Shown here one piece after another: positions 27,650-60,110 of a DNA stretch of 64,000 nt. The notes beneath the pieces are model-generated. The model was not told the DNA's origin, made no database searches, and was given only the letters and a program-made list of their open reading frames with translations. Both the position numbers and the translations under genes were made by a program. How positions within the stretch are numbered: the stretch's first letter is position 1; each line of letters begins with the position of its first letter. The stretch comes from Salinarchaeum sp. IM2453 (GTDB lineage: Archaea; Halobacteriota; Halobacteria; Halobacteriales; Salinarchaeaceae), in assembly GCF_019693215.1 (NCBI RefSeq), contig NZ_CP081183.1:437226-501225 (forward strand). The letters are read 5' to 3'.

Positions 27650-28189
27650 ATGGTGTTGGAGAATCTCCCGCTGATACTTGTCTTGGCGGGCATCGTGCTG
27701 ATGGTGCTTGAAGCGCTTGCGCCGGGAGCGAATTTTATCGTTGTCGGAGTAGCTGTGCTTGCTGCCGGGCTTGTTGGGTTACTCGTTGGGTCGGCGGGAT
27801 TACTCACTGGCGGTGCATTGGTGGCATTGCTTGCTGCCCTGACGATTATATTCGGAAGTGTTGCCTTGTACGTGTATCGTGAATTCGAATTCTACGATGG
27901 AGGTGATTCCGGGGCAACGTCTGATTCTGCATCTTTACGGGGTAAGACCGGGCGAGTAACTGAGCGGGTGACCGAAACGGATGGTCGCGTAAAGCTTGAT
28001 GAAGGCGGCTTCAGTCCAGTCTATCAGGCCCGGGCAATCGATGGTGAGATTCCAGAAGGAGAGCGAGTGTTTGTTGTGGACCCGGGGGGCGGAAACGTGT
28101 TGACAGTAGAGTCACTTGGTGCAATTGAACGAGATGAAATTGATCGGGCTCTAGAGCAGGAAGAAGAATCTGAGTATGAAACAAATTGA
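27650..28189 (+). CDS. NfeD-like membrane protein
   Basis: A 179-residue protein with two to three hydrophobic segments at the N-terminus (LPLILVLAGIVLMVLEALAPGANFIVVG, GLVGLLVGSAGLLTGGALVALLAAL) containing the conserved NfeD turn EALAPG, followed by a C-terminal OB-fold domain (RGKTGRVTERVTETDGRVKLDEGGF, YQARAIDGEIPEGERVFVVDPGGGNVLTVESL). NfeD proteins normally pair with a stomatin/SPFH membrane protein encoded next to them and help organise membrane domains. Here the position downstream is occupied by a mobile element (28248-28830), and no stomatin gene is visible. A TATA-like ATATATAAG lies about 35 bases before the ATG. The 245 bases before it contain nothing else that I recognise. Confidence 0.85.
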   Translation: MVLENLPLILVLAGIVLMVLEALAPGANFIVVGVAVLAAGLVGLLVGSAGLLTGGALVALLAALTIIFGSVALYVYREFEFYDGGDSGATSDSASLRGKTGRVTERVTETDGRVKLDEGGFSPVYQARAIDGEIPEGERVFVVDPGGGNVLTVESLGAIERDEIDRALEQEEESEYETN

Positions 28190-28247: not shown

Positions 28248-28830
28248 TCAACTGCCCCGCGCCATCGTGCGCGGGGCTTGTCAGTGAACTCGACCTCGAA
28301 CCCCAAAACAGGGTGAGCCAGTGTATCTGGCTACCTCGGCGTCCTTGCTCCTGACTTCAGGGCGTATTGACTGACGCTCCTCCGACCGGACGGCTGATGG
28401 CCCCGCCGGAGATACAACTCCGCTATGTTCTTCGCGGCGTTATAATCCCCATGATTCGACTTCCCACACGACCGACACTCGAACTGTCCAGCGTGCCGGT
28501 TGGCTTCGTGGCAGGCAAGCGTAGCGTGCTGATCGCCTAACTCGGTTTCCTGCTTGAGTTCTTGTTTCGTGAGGTGTCTCACGTCGGACTTGGTATGACA
28601 CTCGTTCCACGCAAGAGTGCTGGCGATGTTGCAGCCGTCGAGCCACTCCCCGATTGTGTGAAAAAGCAGTTGCTCATCCTCGTCACTACGAAGGGTGAGG
28701 CGAGTGATGAGCGTTCGACGATGATACTCGTCCGACGCCATATCTTCAACAAAGTACCATTGGCTGATGAGGGTTAGGGTTGGGCGTCGGCTTCAACCCT
28801 GTCCACGGTGGGACGGGGAATCCGCCTCGC
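28248..28830 (-). mobile_element. Internally deleted IS1341-like element (both ends kept)
   Basis: A 583-base element. The right end is a perfect hairpin: CCCCGCGC (28256-28263) and GCGCGGGG (28270-28277), flanked on the minus strand by TGACAAG before and CAGTTGAC after. These flanks match the right ends of the relics at 32650 and 59761. The left end (28803-28826) reads GAGGCGGATTCC on the minus strand, matching the start of the palindromic left ends elsewhere. Between them is a short ORF made of the start and the zinc-finger end of tnpB. It is GC-rich compared with neighbours. A non-autonomous element of the type called PATE or MITE in haloarchaea. Confidence 0.75.
28331..28741 (-). pseudogene. 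Internally deleted tnpB
   Basis: A 136-residue reading frame in which the first about 80 residues look like the start of a TnpB (RRTLITRLTLRSDEDEQLL, then WNECHTKSDVRHLTKQELKQE) and the last 55 are the zinc-finger and RuvC-III end (FECRSCGKSNHGDYNAAKNIAELYLRRG). The middle of the protein, with the first two RuvC catalytic residues, is missing, so it cannot be a nuclease. The final Asp in GDYNAAKNIA is still present. The open frame across the deletion shows that the join was in-frame or nearly so. Confidence 0.8.
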
Positions 28831-28875: not shown

Positions 28876-29703
28876 TTATTCGACTGGCTTGGGAGGATCA
28901 ATGTCAGCCTCAAGATGGGAGAAAACGTCTTCGATACCCATTGTTGCACCTTCATCATCACTGGTATCAGCTACTGTTTGCATAACCGCGTCTTCAAGTT
29001 GATCAAGCCGTTCGGTTACGCGCTCTAAGTTTAGAATTCGAGGCGACAATGACAGATACGTCGTTCCGTTCTGTTCGTATCGATCGTTGTTTGTCATTAC
29101 TGGGAGACGCGGTTCGTCTGCAGTATCGGCCTCTGTCTTCGCTTCCTCTACGTTGAGATCACCGAGACCAGCAACAGTAACAGGCGTCTTAAGATCCAGT
29201 GTTCCACCGACAGCAATTTGTGGAAGAATCGTTGTTGTGTCGTCTAAGATAGTATCTCCTTCGCTTCGAACGGTATAGCAAACCGTATCCTCAACCGTCA
29301 GCTCTCGGTCTGCGGTCACAATCCCAAGGACGACGGAGTTTTCGAGGATCACATTCATTCCGACAACATTCCCACGAATGATACAGTTGGTGAGCCGCAC
29401 ACGCTTGCCGGTAACTGTGCCTGCAACACGGGTAGATTTGGCGTGAACACGACCTGGCGAGCCAACCTCTCCGGTGACCCGTCCATTAGTCAGTTCAACA
29501 GCTTCAGACGCCATGACCGATCCTTCAACGGTGGCCTCATCAGATATTTCGACAGTCTCGCCGTAGATACTACCGTGTACTGTTGCCCCGTCATAGACAC
29601 GGACCGGACGATCAATTTCGGCTTGTGTTGTTGGAATGATCTTCCCATCGTAAGTCTCGCCATCGTTTACGATTGCTCTGGTGGGTTCGATATCCGCCAT
29701 CAT
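28876..29703 (-). CDS. Bactofilin/halofilin-like beta-helix protein
   Basis: A 275-residue protein (start ATG 29703 or the adjacent ATG 29700) built of repeated short beta strands, as in polymer-forming bactofilins: VYDGATVHGSIYGETVEISDE, ATVEGSVMASEAVELTNGRV, TGEVGSPGRVHAKSTRVAGT, VTGKRVRLTNCIIRGNVVG, each coil about 17-20 residues. After about residue 175 comes a linker and a C-terminal helical part (NLERVTERLDQLEDAVMQTV). No signal peptide or membrane segment. Bactofilin homologues (halofilins) shape cells in Haloferax; a cytoskeletal role is inferred here. It ends an operon with the coiled-coil protein, overlapping its stop by an ATGA. Confidence 0.65.
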   Translation of the reverse strand: MMADIEPTRAIVNDGETYDGKIIPTTQAEIDRPVRVYDGATVHGSIYGETVEISDEATVEGSVMASEAVELTNGRVTGEVGSPGRVHAKSTRVAGTVTGKRVRLTNCIIRGNVVGMNVILENSVVLGIVTADRELTVEDTVCYTVRSEGDTILDDTTTILPQIAVGGTLDLKTPVTVAGLGDLNVEEAKTEADTADEPRLPVMTNNDRYEQNGTTYLSLSPRILNLERVTERLDQLEDAVMQTVADTSDDEGATMGIEDVFSHLEADIDPPKPVE

Positions 29704-30656
29704 TCCTCACCCCTGGCGGTTCGGACTGGAATATCTCCTCCCTCAGGAACGGCTTCTGTTACAGCAGATTCGTATGATAGACCAAGAAGGGATTCGTCTC
29801 CATGTTTGGATGCCGTTTCTTCTATTGTTGTCTTTCTGAGAACCGTCTCAGGTGTGTAATGTTCGGGGTCATGAGTATCGCCAATATCCTCATCGATCCC
29901 TTCAACGGGAGACAGCGACACAGAATACCACTCATTTGTGTCTTCTGCGGATAGTTTTGATGGGACAACTGTTGTCCGCTCTGTGACACCATCGATTTCG
30001 TATTCGACGACATAATAGCAGAGTTGTAGCGGTTCTGGCGTATCAACATCAATCGGAGAAGAATCAGGATCAAAGCGGTGCTTGTCAATTTTGTTTAGAA
30101 TGTCTTCTTTTCGTTTGACATAGTTGTTGATATCTTCAGCAACCGATTGGGCTGTCTCACGGAGTTGTTCGTTTCGTTCTTTCCGAACAGTTTCGTTATG
30201 GGATTGCAGGAGATCCCATGTGTCGGTTACCTGTTGAGTAAATGGATCTTCGATGCCGTCCTCAAACTCCTGTTCGTTGATTTCAAAGATATGTGAGCCA
30301 AGATTTCGAACTCGTTGTTGTGCCTTCTCGTCAAGTTCGTCGTGTTTGCGTTGATACCGGTTCTCGATCTGTTCAAGCGTTTCTTCTAATTCTGTTTTTT
30401 CCGATGATAGCTGCTCTCGTTCAGCTTCAATTTGTGGCTCGACAGACTGGACCTCCATCATGTGCTCCATCAACTTGAGCTCGGCTTGGGCTTGCGTGTT
30501 ATCGTCGATCGCGTTTTGAATAGCTTCAGTTCCCTTCTCGATTACCTCAGGGATCTTTTTTACAGTCCCGTGGAGTGATTCAATCGCTTCTAGAATGTTA
30601 CTAAGAGTTTGCAGAATCTGTTTTTGATACTCTTGGAGATCCTCATTCCCAGACAT
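29700..30656 (-). CDS. Coiled-coil protein of the bactofilin-like operon
   Basis: A 318-residue soluble protein. Residues about 1-65 are amphipathic (LQEYQKQILQTLSNILEAIESLHGTVKK); residues 65-115 form a strong coiled coil (EAEREQLSSEKTELEETLEQIE); residues 120-195 are a second helical region. The C-terminal 110 residues change to beta structure (LCYYVVEYEIDGVTERTTVVPSKL, WYSVSLSPVEGIDED), a globular domain I do not recognise. It overlaps both neighbours by a few bases: it starts at the last base of the upstream gene (30656) and its stop overlaps the downstream ATG. The product is therefore probably made in step with its neighbours and likely forms a complex with them. No known family recognised. 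Confidence 0.75.
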   Translation of the reverse strand: MSGNEDLQEYQKQILQTLSNILEAIESLHGTVKKIPEVIEKGTEAIQNAIDDNTQAQAELKLMEHMMEVQSVEPQIEAEREQLSSEKTELEETLEQIENRYQRKHDELDEKAQQRVRNLGSHIFEINEQEFEDGIEDPFTQQVTDTWDLLQSHNETVRKERNEQLRETAQSVAEDINNYVKRKEDILNKIDKHRFDPDSSPIDVDTPEPLQLCYYVVEYEIDGVTERTTVVPSKLSAEDTNEWYSVSLSPVEGIDEDIGDTHDPEHYTPETVLRKTTIEETASKHGDESLLGLSYESAVTEAVPEGGDIPVRTARGEE

Positions 30657-32341
30657 TACCGACCACCTCCATCAGTTCGTGCCGAAACACCGATCAGCCT
30701 GTCTTTCTTCATTTTTGTTCGGTTAATGAGCCCTGAGGCAGACACTCGTCCTCGTGTCTTTAACATCCAGTTTTCACGATGTTGCCGTTTCTCCATCGAC
30801 ATCTCAGCTTCGTGTTGTTGTGCGTTTTGTGCTAGTACCGCCTGTGTAGCCTCGGCCTCTAACTGTTGTTGCGCGGCGAGTATCTCCGCGTCTCGCTGTC
30901 GTTGCTCCAACCGCATGAGTTCAGCCTTCTCTTTTGCAGCCTGCTCGGCTTCTTCAAGTCGTTTTTGCTGTTTATGTTGTGTCTGTTCCAACACTTCTTG
31001 TGTCTTTTTGTCAATCTCTGCAAAGCTATCTTGAACATCGCGCCGGAATTCTTCTTTTCGCTCTTTTCCGAGCCGCTCATATCGTACCATTAGTGAGCTT
31101 ATCTGTTCAACAGTACCTCGGGCTGCCTTTGCCTGTGTCTTGAGATCTCGAATTCGCGAGCGCAGGTCCTTGATACGGTCTGTGGCTGATCTTATTTCTT
31201 CCCTGCGCTCTTCAAATTCTCGCTCTTGGAGTTCTTGCTTTTGATCTTCAATCTTCTCGTATATCCTCCGGCGTTCATCGTCTTTTTCGATCCATAGTTG
31301 ATCACAGACGGGTGTCACTACGTCGTCTTTGAGGCGGTGGCGTGGCACGGTATCACCCATGTCGTGATAGCTGCGACATGTTTCACAGTACCATTCACCG
31401 GCTTCTGGGTCAGAGATTGTGACTTCCGACTCGATGTCGTCCTCTAAGCAACTTGGGCAATAAAAGTTGTAACTGACAATTCCAAATGCATCTGCAGCCA
31501 TCGTGATATGATCATTCAACAACTCGATTGCTGTCTGTTGCATCCCTGAGAGGTCATCGACGAGTTGTTGACTCTTCTGTGATATCTGTCTAAGCTTGGC
31601 GTCATCTTCGTCAGTAGCGCTAATCCGTTGCAGTGTTGACAGGGATTCGACATCGGACCGGGCCTCATCGAGTTCGATGTCGACAGGTGAGTTGTATGAG
31701 TTTTGTTCAATATCGGCGAGCGCAGTGATTTCTGAAATTCCCGTTGACTGTGGAGCATCTGTCTGCATGATTGGCATCTCGCGTGTGTGCTGTTCTGCAG
31801 CGTTAATCTCGGACTGAACCTGTTCCAGCGTATCGGTGACGTTCTGTTCGACATTCGTATCAGATGGCATTACAACAGGGAAGTCATCAGGCGAATCGAG
31901 TTGCGCCGCTGCCCGGTCAATTACCTCAGTGTCGGTTATCTGATCGACTTCAAATGTCGTATCGTCGATTGTTTTGTTTGCATCATACAGCACGATGCCT
32001 TTGTTATCGGGGATGCCATAGACCGTCCAGTGCGCTTTATCAATCCCTTTAATTGTGACATCAGGGTCTTGGGTGGATGCATATCCATACCCGATCATGC
32101 CAGCGGCAACGCCACCAACAAGTATCAGTAATGCAACCGTCCCCCCAACGCCTGTCACCAGCATACCTCCCCCAATGATGATGCCGATTCCAACTGCGGC
32201 TACAGCGCGGGTGATAATCTTCTTTTGCTTGTCAAGGTACTCCGATATTGGATCCGACACTGCTTCTAAAACCGCTATTGAAAGGGCACGGTCTTCGTCT
32301 ACTGGTGATGACCCATCAAACACAACATCATCCACTCGCAT
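30656..32341 (-). CDS. Membrane-anchored coiled-coil protein with zinc ribbon
   Basis: About 561 residues (start 32341, MRVDDVVFDGSSPVDEDR; an in-frame ATG at 32392 would add 17 basic residues). Order of parts: short cytoplasmic head; two adjacent membrane segments with Gly-rich turn (residues about 45-90: AVAAVGIGIIIGGGMLVTGV and VALLILVGGVAAGMIGYGY); an alpha/beta region; a helical part; a four-Cys zinc ribbon (YCPSCLEDD near residue 295 and WYCETCRSYHD near 318); then a 160-residue charged coiled coil (RRRIYEKIEDQKQELQEREF onwards); and a basic tail. First gene of the three-gene operon. The zinc ribbon and coiled coil probably face the cytoplasm. I do not recognise the family. Confidence 0.75.
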   Translation of the reverse strand: MRVDDVVFDGSSPVDEDRALSIAVLEAVSDPISEYLDKQKKIITRAVAAVGIGIIIGGGMLVTGVGGTVALLILVGGVAAGMIGYGYASTQDPDVTIKGIDKAHWTVYGIPDNKGIVLYDANKTIDDTTFEVDQITDTEVIDRAAAQLDSPDDFPVVMPSDTNVEQNVTDTLEQVQSEINAAEQHTREMPIMQTDAPQSTGISEITALADIEQNSYNSPVDIELDEARSDVESLSTLQRISATDEDDAKLRQISQKSQQLVDDLSGMQQTAIELLNDHITMAADAFGIVSYNFYCPSCLEDDIESEVTISDPEAGEWYCETCRSYHDMGDTVPRHRLKDDVVTPVCDQLWIEKDDERRRIYEKIEDQKQELQEREFEERREEIRSATDRIKDLRSRIRDLKTQAKAARGTVEQISSLMVRYERLGKERKEEFRRDVQDSFAEIDKKTQEVLEQTQHKQQKRLEEAEQAAKEKAELMRLEQRQRDAEILAAQQQLEAEATQAVLAQNAQQHEAEMSMEKRQHRENWMLKTRGRVSASGLINRTKMKKDRLIGVSARTDGGGR

Positions 32342-32649: not shown

Positions 32650-32973
32650 TCACAGAATATCGAGGCGGATGCCACGGGGTCGTCCGGAAATCTCCGATTT
32701 CCGTGATCACGAGAATCGAAGATGCTCGAACGACTTGACCCCGTGGAAGAGGCCGACACGCAACCGAATACAACATATTCAAAGAGTTTAACATCGTATT
32801 CAAAACTAGTAACTTGCAGCCAGATGTGTTGTGAGTTACGGGCTGTCCGTCAACCAGCCCCTCGAAGTTAGGGACGTTGAACGTGAATGGTCAGACAGAC
32901 CCCACCGAGCATTTCTCGGTTAGAACGGGAGTCCACTGACAAGCCTCAGGGTCAAGCCCCGAGGCAGTTAACA
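32650..32973 (+). mobile_element. Non-autonomous IS1341-like relic, unit 1 (palindromic left end plus 3' module)
   Basis: A 324-base unit without coding capacity. Its left end starts TCGAGGCGGATGCC and contains the 75-base palindrome A (32673-32747). Its right part has three hairpins in order: GGGCTG/CAGCCC (32841-32861), CCGAG/CTCGG (32906-32920) and GCCTC/GAGGC (32944-32966), followed by CAGTTAAC. The linker GGGAGTCCACTGACAAGCC between hairpins two and three is identical in unit 2 (59761-60110). No tnpB sequence lies between the ends. Confidence 0.7.
32673..32747 (+). repeat. 75-base palindrome, copy A
   Basis: Outer arms CCACGGGG and CCCCGTGG, then GTCG/CGAC, then CGATT/AATCG around the perfect centre CGTGATCACG. 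Almost the whole length can pair with itself. Copy B (59777-59851) is the same length and differs at only a handful of bases. Copy C (33136-33210) matches in the opposite orientation. Confidence 0.8.
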
Positions 32974-33135: not shown

Positions 33136-33237
33136 CCTCAGGGGGAAGTCGTTCGAGAATCGGAGATTCTTGTGATCACGAAAACCGGAGGGTTTTCGAC
33201 GACCCCGAGGTCTGCCTGCTTTCTCTGTAGAAGATTT
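33136..33237 (-). repeat. 75-base palindrome, copy C, with conserved tail
   Basis: Palindrome 33136-33210 with outer arms CCTCAGGGG and CCCCGAGG and centre TGTGATCACG. The following tail ending TTTCTCTGTAGAAG is shared with copy D. It lies 19 bases from the 3' end of tRNA-Thr, on the side where integrative elements often insert. The 160 bases between unit 1 and this copy hold nothing else that I recognise. Confidence 0.7.
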
Positions 33238-33255
33238 AACGCTGGAATTAGGCAA

Positions 33256-33328
33256 GCCGGTGGAGGGATTTGAACCCTCGACCTAATCCTTACGAAGGAT
33301 TCGCTCTGCCAGTCTGAGCTACACCGGC
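33256..33328 (-). tRNA. tRNA-Thr (anticodon CGT)
   Basis: A complete 73-base cloverleaf on the minus strand. Acceptor arms GCCGGTG and CACCGGC pair over seven bases. The D arm contains CAGACTGGCAGAG. The anticodon arm AATCC-TTCGTAA-GGATT gives anticodon CGT, reading ACG (Thr). The T arm is GAGGG-TTCAAAT-CCCTC. No intron and no encoded CCA. The position of its TATA box (33354-33360) coincides with the end of a mobile relic. Confidence 0.96.
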
Positions 33329-36018: not shown

Positions 36019-39000
36019 TTATTCTTCGTTACGCAGGCGCAGAGCAAGCAGTGCAGCACCAAGCAGGGCGAGGGCTGCAATGCCAGCCGTGAAGCCTGGG
36101 ATTCCTTCATCATCTTCTTCAATGGTTAGGGTTGCCGTGTCGGATGCGTCATCATCGTCGTGGGTTGCGGTTGCCTCCATGTCATACTCATCAGCATCGA
36201 GATCTTCAGTTTCGACGTCTTCGAAGGTAACCGTTTCAGTGTCACCTGCATCAACATCAACGGTATCATCTACGGTGATCTCGCCGTCGTCAATGTCAAG
36301 TTCAACATCGACATCTTCGGCGTCAAGGTCACCGGTGTTTTCGACATCAACGTCAATGTCAGTGTTTTCACCTTCGTCGATCGTGAGATCATCCAGTGTA
36401 ACATCAAGTTCAACAACTGGTTCCTCGACGGTGAGTGTTGCATTTGCAGTGTCGTCGTCGGTCATCGCGGTCATGTCATAGTCATCAGCGTCGAGGTCCT
36501 CAGTGTTGAGGTCAAGGCTGACAGTCTCGCTGTCATCAGGACTAAGTTCTTCAATTTCCTCAGTTGCGCTGATGTCTTCACCGTCAACTTCAACTACGAC
36601 TTCCTGTGTACCTTCAGCATCTCCTTCATTCGTGACTTCAACATCGACAGTTGCTTCGTCACCTTCAGTGATTTCTACATCGTCGAATTCGGTAATCTGG
36701 AAGTCGGCCTCGTCATCGACAACGCTCAGAGTTGCGGTTGCAGCGTCGACGTCGAACTCGTCGAGGTCATCTTGTTCTGGTGTAGCTTCAATATCAGTCT
36801 CACCGATTTCGTCACCAATGACCTCTACTTCAGCGAGTCCGTCTTGTTCAGTGTCAGCAGTCTCGTCACCGGTGAATGATGCAACAGAGGTATTGGTTAT
36901 TTCGAAGTCAATTCCAATTCGTGGAACCTCGATTACATCGTCGTTTTCATCAACGAGGTTGGCTGAAACGTTGGTGGTCTCATCTTCAGCGATAGAGTCT
37001 GTTTCGAGTTCGATGTTACCTTCTTCAGCAAAACTGTAGAAAGTTGCATCAGCATCATCACGGTCGATGCCTGCAGTTTCTTCAACAGGGTTGACATCCA
37101 GGTTGATATCGTGTGTGCCAGAGTTAGTACTATCTACGAATACGTAGAAATGTCCATCAGTGATCTCTTCGCCAAGTTCGTTGCCAGTGATTCGCTCACC
37201 GAGGTTTTCATCCTGAATAACACCCGTTGGCTGCCCATCATCGATATCATCAGCAATGACTTTTGCAGACCCGGCAGTTGTGAGTTCGAATTCGAACGGC
37301 TCGTCATCTTTCTCGGTCAAAGATCCAAACTCATCGAAAATACTAACATTGTAGGCAGCAACGCGGTGTTCTCGGGTAAATTCTTCATTAGTTGAATCGT
37401 AACTTGTACCACCACGGATTGCATTTTCTTCGAGATCAACACTGATCTCATCAGGAGCACCAGCTGTTACTGTGTATTCAAGATCAACGTGCTCTTCGCC
37501 GTTGTCAGTTTCAAGTGTTGCGTTGACAGTGTAATCACCAGCGAGGGTACCACTAAACTCAAACGGAGCTGTTCCGTATCCTGGGTTTTCAAAGTCAAAC
37601 CCTGCTGTCTCAAGGCTGGTCGTGTTAAGAACGTCACCAGCATCAAGATCGCCAGGGGATTCAGTTAACTCTAGGGAGACATCGGCACCGCCAAAGGGTC
37701 CATACGTCTCATTTGTGACCTCAACAGTTCCTACTTCGGTTTCGCCAGCAACAACATTTTCAGGACTCTCTCCAGCATCGCCGGTAATGTCATCGGCCAT
37801 CACATCGACTGTGTCAACATCACTGGTGGTGGTGACGTCGTTACCGCCATCAGCTTCAGTTGTCGTATTGTACGTAACTGACATGTCCACATCGTCAGCT
37901 TCGGCAGTCACATTTAGAAGTCCGAATGGAGCAACAGTCAGCTCATCATTAGTGCTAAAGTCACCGTCCGCTTGGACAATAAGCTCGTTGTCACTTACTT
38001 CTTGGAAGGTAACATCGTCACTACCAAGTTCAGGTTCGTCTTCTGGACCATCAACTACAACTTCCCAATATGTGAAGTCAACTCGTTCACCAGTGTCTTC
38101 ATCAATGGCATTTCGGGTATCAAAGGTAATCTCGCTGTCAGTTGGGAACTCAAAGGTGATATTGGTTCCGTCTGCGACTTGAACAGCATCGTCATCAGAA
38201 ATCTCTGCCGGAACTACAGTAATGGCATCGTCACCATTCCCGGGATTACCGATGATTGAGCCATGTGCATCTGCGTCTTCGACAGGAATCTCGTCAAATT
38301 CTCCAAACGATTGACCGACTTCGACATCAGCTTTTTCAACGCTAATCAGAGCGTTTTCATCAACGGAAGTGACCTCTCCAGTTTCACCGGTCTGGAGCTC
38401 GATATCAACAGACGTCTCATCGTCGATGTCAGCAGAAGTGTTGAAGTCAAGTGACTCCTCATCGCTAGCATCTGCAATGAAAAGTGACTCTCCATCGGCT
38501 GGTGGGGAGTCTGTAACATTGAAAGTCAAGACATTGTCTTCGATGACTACATCATAATCTGCTGAAACTTCACTTTCATCATTATCGTAGATGGTAATCT
38601 CCTGTCGTTCATCAAACGTAACATCAGAATTATTCGTTGCTAATGTTATATTGGTATTCTCTGCAATGACACCTTCCTGATTCGTGATTTCAACGACAAA
38701 ATCATCATCCGGTTCTGCAATTTCTTGGCCGTTTATACCAGCGCCAAGGGTAACCTCATCACTGCCGAAGATTGTGAGTTCAGGCTTGCTAATCGCAATT
38801 GTGTGAGTCTCATCCGCTTCAACAGAGCCAGTCGAAGCTTCTGCCTCTGTAGTCATCGAGAGTTCAGTTTCATCAGGAACATCTGCATCGACATCAACCT
38901 GAATGTTTTCGACATGAACGGATTGACCAGACTCGAATGATTCGCTCACAGGAAGGAAAAGTTCGTTTGCCTCAGCAGAGATGTCATCTTCCTCAATGTT

Positions 39001-39759
39001 TCCGGCATCACTGCCACCTTCGATACTAATGTCATCGACGTTAGCGAATTCTAAACCTTCATCCTCAATGGTGAAAATAACATCTTCGCCTTCAGCAATT
39101 TGGCTGTTTGCTTCTGAAAGACCATCTGTAGCATCGGCTGTTTCAACAGTCAAAGTCTCCAGACCTTCACCTGATGAGTCAGCACCAACAGATGAGTCGT
39201 CGTCGTCATCGAGTGATGGTTTCTGTGGGTCGAAGACCTGTTCGTCAACATCGCCGAGGAAGACGTCAATGTTGACATCTTCGTCATCAGATCCGAGATC
39301 AGGAGTTGTATCAAACTCAAGTCCTTTCAGGCGAAGTTGGTCATCATGTGAGGTGGGGCCGTCAATTTCGACTTCTAGTGTCTGGTCATCAACGATAGTG
39401 ACATCGGTGAAAGTAAAGTCCGCCTCGCTGTTCTTTGAGGTTTGGATATCATCTTCATCCAGACCATCGCTGAAGCTAACATTTTCTGGCAGTTCTATGG
39501 TTGTAGTGCCATCAATAGCTCCGTCCGTACCTCCATCTTCAATGACAAACACGTTAGTAGCCTGATCGCCACTGCCAGCAATTAGTTCTGCGTTATCCAA
39601 GCCGGTGGTAAATCCAGCGCTGATGTCACCTTCGGAAAAATCTGCCTCTGGATCAGCAGCAGCACTGCCAGCAAGCGCGGTTGCCCCCATTGCGACCATC
39701 GAGACAACCATTACAGTCGCAAGGAAAATAGCACGGAATTGCTCGCGCCTACTTGTCAT
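36019..39759 (-). CDS. S-layer-type major cell-surface glycoprotein
   Basis: A 1246-residue secreted protein and the most probable S-layer subunit here. Signal peptide at residues 1-34 (MTSRREQFRAIFLATVMVVS, cut after GSAAA). The mature chain is very acidic, nearly free of Lys and without Cys, and consists of serial beta-sandwich domains; several N-glycosylation sites (for example NTTTEAD, NETYGPF, NATLETD) are present. The last two domains before the tail, about 985-1205, are CARDB-like (FDDVEITEGDEATVDVEV, LDDLTIDEGENTDIDVDV). The end GIPGFTAGIAALALLGAALL plus RLRNEE is a PGF-CTERM sorting tail for archaeosortase and lipid attachment. It is preceded by a Shine-Dalgarno sequence and a long leader, fitting high expression. 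Confidence 0.9.
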   Translation of the reverse strand: MTSRREQFRAIFLATVMVVSMVAMGATALAGSAAADPEADFSEGDISAGFTTGLDNAELIAGSGDQATNVFVIEDGGTDGAIDGTTTIELPENVSFSDGLDEDDIQTSKNSEADFTFTDVTIVDDQTLEVEIDGPTSHDDQLRLKGLEFDTTPDLGSDDEDVNIDVFLGDVDEQVFDPQKPSLDDDDDSSVGADSSGEGLETLTVETADATDGLSEANSQIAEGEDVIFTIEDEGLEFANVDDISIEGGSDAGNIEEDDISAEANELFLPVSESFESGQSVHVENIQVDVDADVPDETELSMTTEAEASTGSVEADETHTIAISKPELTIFGSDEVTLGAGINGQEIAEPDDDFVVEITNQEGVIAENTNITLATNNSDVTFDERQEITIYDNDESEVSADYDVVIEDNVLTFNVTDSPPADGESLFIADASDEESLDFNTSADIDDETSVDIELQTGETGEVTSVDENALISVEKADVEVGQSFGEFDEIPVEDADAHGSIIGNPGNGDDAITVVPAEISDDDAVQVADGTNITFEFPTDSEITFDTRNAIDEDTGERVDFTYWEVVVDGPEDEPELGSDDVTFQEVSDNELIVQADGDFSTNDELTVAPFGLLNVTAEADDVDMSVTYNTTTEADGGNDVTTTSDVDTVDVMADDITGDAGESPENVVAGETEVGTVEVTNETYGPFGGADVSLELTESPGDLDAGDVLNTTSLETAGFDFENPGYGTAPFEFSGTLAGDYTVNATLETDNGEEHVDLEYTVTAGAPDEISVDLEENAIRGGTSYDSTNEEFTREHRVAAYNVSIFDEFGSLTEKDDEPFEFELTTAGSAKVIADDIDDGQPTGVIQDENLGERITGNELGEEITDGHFYVFVDSTNSGTHDINLDVNPVEETAGIDRDDADATFYSFAEEGNIELETDSIAEDETTNVSANLVDENDDVIEVPRIGIDFEITNTSVASFTGDETADTEQDGLAEVEVIGDEIGETDIEATPEQDDLDEFDVDAATATLSVVDDEADFQITEFDDVEITEGDEATVDVEVTNEGDAEGTQEVVVEVDGEDISATEEIEELSPDDSETVSLDLNTEDLDADDYDMTAMTDDDTANATLTVEEPVVELDVTLDDLTIDEGENTDIDVDVENTGDLDAEDVDVELDIDDGEITVDDTVDVDAGDTETVTFEDVETEDLDADEYDMEATATHDDDDASDTATLTIEEDDEGIPGFTAGIAALALLGAALLALRLRNEE

Positions 39760-59760: not shown

Positions 59761-60110
59761 AGAATCAAGGCGGATGCCACGGAGTCGTCCGGACATCTCC
59801 GATTTCCGTGATCACGAGAATCGAAGCTGCTCGACCGACTTGCCCCCGTGGAGGAAGCCGACACGTTGGAATTAATCAACACAGTAAACCAATCCAACTC
59901 CCTGATTGAAATGCGACTATTTATTGAGTAGTGTCCTATGGTTGTAGTACATCCATCGCGGGCAGACGTCTCGTGGTGGATGGGCCACTAGTCAACTGGC
60001 CCTCACGTCAGGGGCGCTGAATGTGAACGGTCAGACCAGCCCTACCGTATCACACGGGTAGAACGGGAGTCCACTGACAAGCCTCGAGGCTTGACCCCGA
60101 GGCAGTTGAC
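59761..60110 (+). mobile_element. Non-autonomous IS1341-like relic, unit 2
   Basis: A 350-base copy of the unit at 32650-32973. The left end AAGGCGGATGCC leads into palindrome B; the 3' module has GGGCCA/TGGCCC (59982-60002), CTACCGT/ACGGGTAG (60042-60061) and GCCTC/GAGGC (60081-60103), followed by CAGTTGAC. The linkers GGGAGTCCACTGACAAGCC and ATGTGAACGGTCAGAC are shared with unit 1, while the stem sequences differ by paired changes. No coding sequence is left. The spacer at 59524-59623 before it has no gene. Confidence 0.7.
59777..59851 (+). repeat. 75-base palindrome, copy B
   Basis: Same length and same centre (CGTGATCACG) as copy A. Outer arms CCACGG/CCGTGG; inner GTCG/CGAC and CGATT/AATCG. 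Near-identical to copy A, which suggests recent spread or selection on the structure. Confidence 0.8.

Follow-up and report, generated by a model that had tools for sequence, protein, structure and literature searches.

A three-gene operon of Salinarchaeum sp. IM2453 and other archaea that may encode a membrane-anchored, bactofilin-like scaffold

A three-gene operon, A-B-C, was analysed in a stretch of 64,000 nucleotides from Salinarchaeum sp. IM2453 (NZ_CP081183.1, positions 437,226 to 501,225), which we call the window. With a probability of roughly 0.58, we read A-B-C as an accessory operon that moves horizontally and encodes a membrane-anchored, bactofilin-like scaffold. The trio is more than a chance neighbourhood because the order A-B-C recurs in 15 other archaeal genomes. 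Judged by searches of Pfam and NCBIfam, in which neither A nor B matched a known family, these two are undescribed protein families. The coordinates of the features are collected in Table 1.

Table 1. Features of the A-B-C operon and its surroundings (window coordinates)
Feature	Coordinates	Strand	Remarks
tRNA-Thr(CGT)	33255..33328	-	upstream of operon; beside Trm5-like gene also in operon-less family members
28-nt inverted pair, arm 2	32918..32945	-	upstream of operon
Gene A	30656..32341	-	561 aa; membrane hairpin, beta-rich region, zinc ribbon, long charged helix
A residues 42-90, two-helix membrane hairpin	32072..32218	-	hydropathy; helices 16-63 and 67-90 in model
A residues 295-322, C-x2-C...C-x2-C zinc ribbon	31376..31459	-	alignment of 14; also in G409
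A residues 342-528, long helix	30758..31318	-	low-confidence model, alignment
Gene B	29700..30656	-	318 aa; N-terminal heptad coiled coil, C-terminal strand-rich part
Gene C	28876..29703	-	bactofilin-like beta-helix protein; start probably 29700
C beta-helix core, residues ~33-178	29170..29607	-	AlphaFold2 model and hydropathy periodicity
TnpB remnant	28331..28741	-	directly downstream of C; N-terminal part joined to C-terminal zinc-ribbon part, middle lost
28-nt inverted pair, arm 1	28275..28302	+	pair flanks operon and TnpB remnant

The three genes are open reading frames that follow each other head to tail on one strand, most likely as a single transcription unit. They had been described from the letters alone as packed with overlapping ends, and the junctions agree with this description: the stop codon of A and the start codon of B share 1 nt (TAATG), and the stop codon of B overlaps C by 4 nt if the first ATG of C is used, or by 1 nt with the second. 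The second ATG is probably the true start, because all homologues of C begin at the residue matching it. For the same kind of reason, position 32341 is the right start of A, since its homologues begin at the matching MR(V/I). The GC content of A (49%), B (46%) and C (50%) corresponds to that of the window (50%). A scan for promoters and terminators with a sigma-70 model, which is unsuited to archaea, gave no signal above chance.

The fold of C was assessed by structure prediction and by analysis of its hydropathy. The AlphaFold2 model, calculated with 15 homologues, is a beta-helix with 143 residues at pLDDT of at least 90, a level reached throughout about residues 50-180, and its rungs of 16-17 residues each start at residues 41, 58, 75, 92, 108 and 124. 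In the alignment, hydropathy repeats at about 5.6, 11, 17, 22, 28 and 33 residues, as expected of a three-sided helix. The sequence-only reading had taken the product of the last gene for a beta-helix repeat protein; the high-confidence prediction and the periodicity bear this out, and both give C a core beyond the approximately 100 residues that mark a bactofilin. Comparison with the Pfam bactofilin model PF04519 gave 25.3 bits for C, under the curated cut-off of 27.9. This model matched 14 of the 15 C homologues at E ≤0.01, with a best E of 1.3e-6; all bit scores printed for members were under 27.9, the best member not being among those printed. The C profile also aligned with A7, a haloarchaeal family whose tested members pass the bactofilin cut-off with 38.6 and 54.1 bits (hhalign 92.5%, E 4.8e-7, 76 columns), and C thus shows profile similarity to proteins above the cut-off. 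Alignment with a looser bactofilin set, A8, was weaker (66.8%).

Foldseek returned no match of C at E <0.001 in the PDB, solved bactofilins included, where repetitive beta-solenoids such as this are hard targets for the program; the best weak matches were right-handed beta-helix lyases. Nothing significant was obtained against viral structures, and a profile search of PDB sequences gave weak matches to eIF2B only (eIF2B gamma). Both flanks of the core are conserved in C, with an N-terminal TRA.VE..ETYDGKI.P motif and a C-terminal Y.TL.PR.LNLE...RL.ELE helix, whereas the flanks of bactofilins are described as variable (PMC12364344). We consider C best called bactofilin-like, because it has the fold and some of the sequence in common with bactofilins but misses one formal threshold and has conserved flanks. 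By sequence, it stands at the margin of that family. As for attachment to the membrane by the protein's own N-terminus, through an amphipathic peptide or a transmembrane segment as in bactofilins, hydropathy shows no N-terminal hydrophobic segment in C; A could supply its membrane anchor. Two further bactofilin-domain proteins are encoded elsewhere in this genome (L106:4411-5325 and L107:3301-4428), one with several bactofilin stretches and one with a signal-like N-terminus and membrane helices.

Protein A had been predicted to combine a two-helix membrane anchor with a four-cysteine ribbon, and both parts were recovered by hydropathy and alignment. All four cysteines (295, 298, 319 and 322) are invariant in 14 homologues and are kept in the distant homologue of G409, an archaeon outside the order. 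Basic residues beside the hairpin, together with the zinc ribbon, suggest that both ends of A are cytoplasmic. The AlphaFold2 model of the whole protein is of low confidence (pTM 0.22) and predicts a helix of about 190 residues. The first half of this helix, to about residue 421 (LWIEKDDERRRIYE.IEDQK...), is the most conserved stretch of A. The hydrophobic periodicity of the helix is 3.6, compared to the canonical 3.5 of a coiled coil, and on this measure it is better described as long and amphipathic than as a classical heptad coiled coil. In B, residues 5-60 show a strong heptad period of 3.5. Of the two long coiled coils claimed at the outset, the one in B therefore stands, whereas the one in A stands only in part, as a long helix without the heptad. 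A common origin of A and B as paralogues was considered and rejected, as their hhalign score (17.8%) is at coiled-coil level.

To describe the distribution of the trio, three genome sets were used, namely 59 relatives, 392 genomes of the order and a phylum-wide sample. Among the 59 relatives, A, B and C occur together in three, in addition to the genome of the window, and neither of the two other sampled members of the family of the window carries them. In the order, one and the same set of 15 genomes out of 392 contains A, B and full-length C, and these genomes belong to 12 genera and five families; Natronorubrum thiooxidans is a carrier of the trio. The gene order is always A-B-C, and the junctions of adjacent genes range from a gap of 3 nt to an overlap of 4 nt. 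The trio is also intact and in order in G409, at a locus with 32% GC, and is present in one of the three sampled genomes of the class of G409. In total, 16 genomes across six families share the arrangement. No genome had a full homologue of A or B but lacked C. The remaining matches of the C profile in the 392 genomes are either weak ones to other proteins (bactofilin-like in those that were read) or C-terminal remnants of C, as in G042 and in a second copy in G024; the B profile gave one extra match, weak and partial, in G369.

Trees of A, B and C agree where they are resolved, yet they cut across families, with members of two families (f4 and f8) interleaved. The window and N. thiooxidans, which belong to different families, are sisters in all three trees with 100% bootstrap. 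The pairwise distance matrices of the three proteins correlate with r = 0.92-0.96, a value to be read without an unrelated control gene beside it. Since these mutually consistent trees do not follow family borders, the trio is most likely both transferred and lost as one unit. Decay is visible in two genomes of one genus: in G050 (L022:8810-11499), a DDE-transposase insertion and a frame change interrupt A, with B and C still intact, and in G042 only the end of C is left. Being absent from 377 of the 392 genomes and decayed in some, the module is dispensable. No relatives were found on plasmids (search with A), in phages (search with C) or in viral contigs (A profile).

The genome of the window has a size of 2.66 Mb. 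The two other sampled family members belong to another genus and have about 67% GC at the matching locus, compared to about 50% in the window. An early remark on the interest that the module would have in a square, flat organism such as Haloquadratum finds no support here in composition or family size, as the family of the window is small and Haloquadratum belongs to the large family Haloferacaceae. In G001 and G002, the same pair of Trm5-like gene and tRNA-Thr is present and the operon is absent. TnpB-type scars and the inverted 28-nt pair lie on both sides of the operon in the window. The sequence GGCTTGTCAGTGNACTC occurs in exactly three copies in the window (28275-28291, 32929-32945 and 60067-60083), of which the first two flank the operon in opposite orientation; the copies are possibly the ends of remnants of IS200/IS605-type elements. 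Two 75-nt inverted arms with 77% complementarity (32672-32746 and 33136-33210) lie between tRNA-Thr and the operon. Integration into tRNA genes was dropped as an explanation, because no consistent tRNA stands beside the module at other loci and no duplication of a tRNA was seen. An NfeD-like membrane protein is encoded next to the operon (27650-28189, + strand), and no SPFH partner gene was recognised beside it. About 4 kb upstream of the operon lies a gene for a large surface-layer-like protein of 1246 aa (36019-39759, - strand), which contains CARDB domains and, at its C-terminus, a hydrophobic segment.

A fourth gene, D, adjoins the trio in nine of the 15 loci. Its product consists of an N-terminal hydrophobic stretch (a membrane region in most), a disordered part and C-terminal HEAT repeats. 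The gene lies upstream in L020, L089, L092, L094 and L096, downstream in L022, L087 and L095, and on both sides in L090. A profile of the N-terminal part of D, searched in 293 genomes, gave strong matches only in trio genomes and at the trio, with two other matches being weak; no D was found in the genome of the window. A Ser/Thr kinase gene is located near the module in three of the 15 loci (best PADLOC match PD-T4-6, E 1.9e-44), and a membrane protein of 81 residues is encoded 3′ of C in two. Around the trio of L087 (11500-16497) and L095 (12678-15964), the kinase is accompanied by a shared zinc-ribbon protein that is FHA-like by look. Two more proteins are encoded in L087, an AAA ATPase that matches IetA and a zinc-ribbon protein that weakly matches SPFH (Band 7).

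Because its distribution is patchy and a kinase is sometimes nearby, a membrane signalling or defence-type complex is the main rival reading of the trio. C would then serve as a non-polymerising beta-helix adaptor in a complex that includes D and the kinase at the loci that have them, and viral or stress selection would account for the patchy spread, the decay and the kinase and HEAT neighbours. A module that is patchy, horizontally moved and often decayed would fit such a role, as would the kinase match and, in L087 and L095, neighbours of FHA-like or zinc-ribbon type. However, the kinase is missing from 12 of the loci, and the PADLOC PD-T4-6 models are general kinase models. The PADLOC matches of A and B themselves are at coiled-coil level only and C has none, which does not qualify the trio as a known anti-phage defence system; the core also contains no nuclease, NTPase or toxin. 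Together with the lack of relatives in the plasmid, phage and viral searches given above, this makes a signalling or defence role unlikely in our judgement.

The two further alternatives concern C and its neighbours. If C were a left-handed hexapeptide-type beta-helix with a transferase-like fold instead of a bactofilin, the trio might be an enzyme or carrier complex. The Pfam model LbH_EIF2B does match C (E 2.2e-6) and nine of the 15 members, in line with the weak PDB profile match to eIF2B gamma. Nevertheless, the score is 28 bits compared to a cut-off of 54, which leaves C outside this family, and genuine haloarchaeal bactofilin-domain proteins match LbH models too. Hexapeptide proteins have short strands and strict 18-residue coils, whereas the model of C has strands of 8-10 residues in rungs of 16-17. 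As no nucleotidyltransferase or transferase domain is present either, we regard a hexapeptide-type complex as improbable. Least credible of all seems a genomic island in which C, as an ordinary halofilin or bactofilin, merely lies beside genes that have nothing to do with it. The scars of mobile elements on either side and the family members that lack the operon at the same site could be taken in this way, but the strict co-occurrence of the same three genes, in the same order and with correlated divergence, in 16 genomes of six families contradicts it. The other bactofilin-domain genes of this genome, moreover, lie elsewhere without A or B.

The membrane-anchored scaffold thus remains the reading that we prefer. 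C would probably be the scaffold subunit, stacking end to end without nucleotide as bactofilins do, and because its flanks are conserved, they probably bind fixed partners. A would sit in the membrane by its hairpin, with both ends in the cytoplasm and the long helix reaching inward, and B may be a cytosolic coiled-coil protein linking A to C. D, as a membrane protein with a HEAT end, might join the complex in many lineages as an optional peripheral subunit. By analogy with bacterial pairs of bactofilin and membrane protein, the complex could locally organise or stiffen the membrane or envelope, with shape, curvature or surface-layer placement as candidate tasks. The sequence-only reading had proposed a beta-helix filament held at the membrane. 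Neither of the two outcomes that it named as refuting was observed, as C is predicted to be a beta-helix and A and B do not occur mostly without it. A membrane-anchored, bactofilin-like complex is well supported by the predicted beta-helix of C and by the strict co-occurrence of A and B with it; polymerisation of C, and the part of A and B in anchoring and regulating it, are what we infer beyond this, and a role in cell shape is plausible. Going further, we tentatively propose a new archaeal cytoskeletal system, made of a bactofilin-like polymer, the zinc-ribbon anchor A, the linker B and the optional D, as a transferable module of cell architecture or envelope; on present evidence this somewhat less than even possibility is the bolder claim. 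If true, such a module has been passed among halophilic archaea and is present in at least one archaeon outside their order, which suggests that parts of a cytoskeleton can be optional, exchangeable cargo. To our knowledge, little is known about dedicated partners of archaeal bactofilin-type proteins. Haloarchaea are devoid of peptidoglycan, and the trio offers a defined complex for testing the attachment of a beta-helix polymer to an archaeal membrane where no peptidoglycan wall is present.

Among known systems, the bactofilins of PF04519 (BacA of Caulobacter, Asticcacaulis and Hyphomonas) resemble C in the beta-helix core, the rungs of about 17 residues and the weak but consistent Pfam match. 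C differs from them by a longer core (about 145 compared to 100 residues), by flanks that are conserved instead of variable, by a score below the family cut-off and by its dedicated partners A and B. The halofilins HalA and HalB of Haloferax volcanii are likewise haloarchaeal and related to bactofilins, and C is likened to them by description; C itself lies outside the haloarchaeal comparison family A7. As cited in PMC12186497, HalA and HalB are reported to act on curvature and shape. The BacNOP-PadC-ParABS system of Myxococcus, as cited in PMC12284271 and PMC12704722, also combines a bactofilin scaffold with dedicated partners, but the trio contains no ParA or ParB homologue. In the bacA-lmdC pair of Hyphomonas and Rhodospirillum, the genes of a bactofilin and a membrane coiled-coil protein overlap in a bicistronic operon, and the two products bind each other (PMC10945521). 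LmdC is a single-span M23 peptidoglycan hydrolase, whereas A, which lacks an enzyme domain, combines a hairpin with a zinc ribbon. With overlapping genes for a beta-helix protein and a membrane protein in both cases, bacA-lmdC is, by analogy, the closest functional parallel to the trio.
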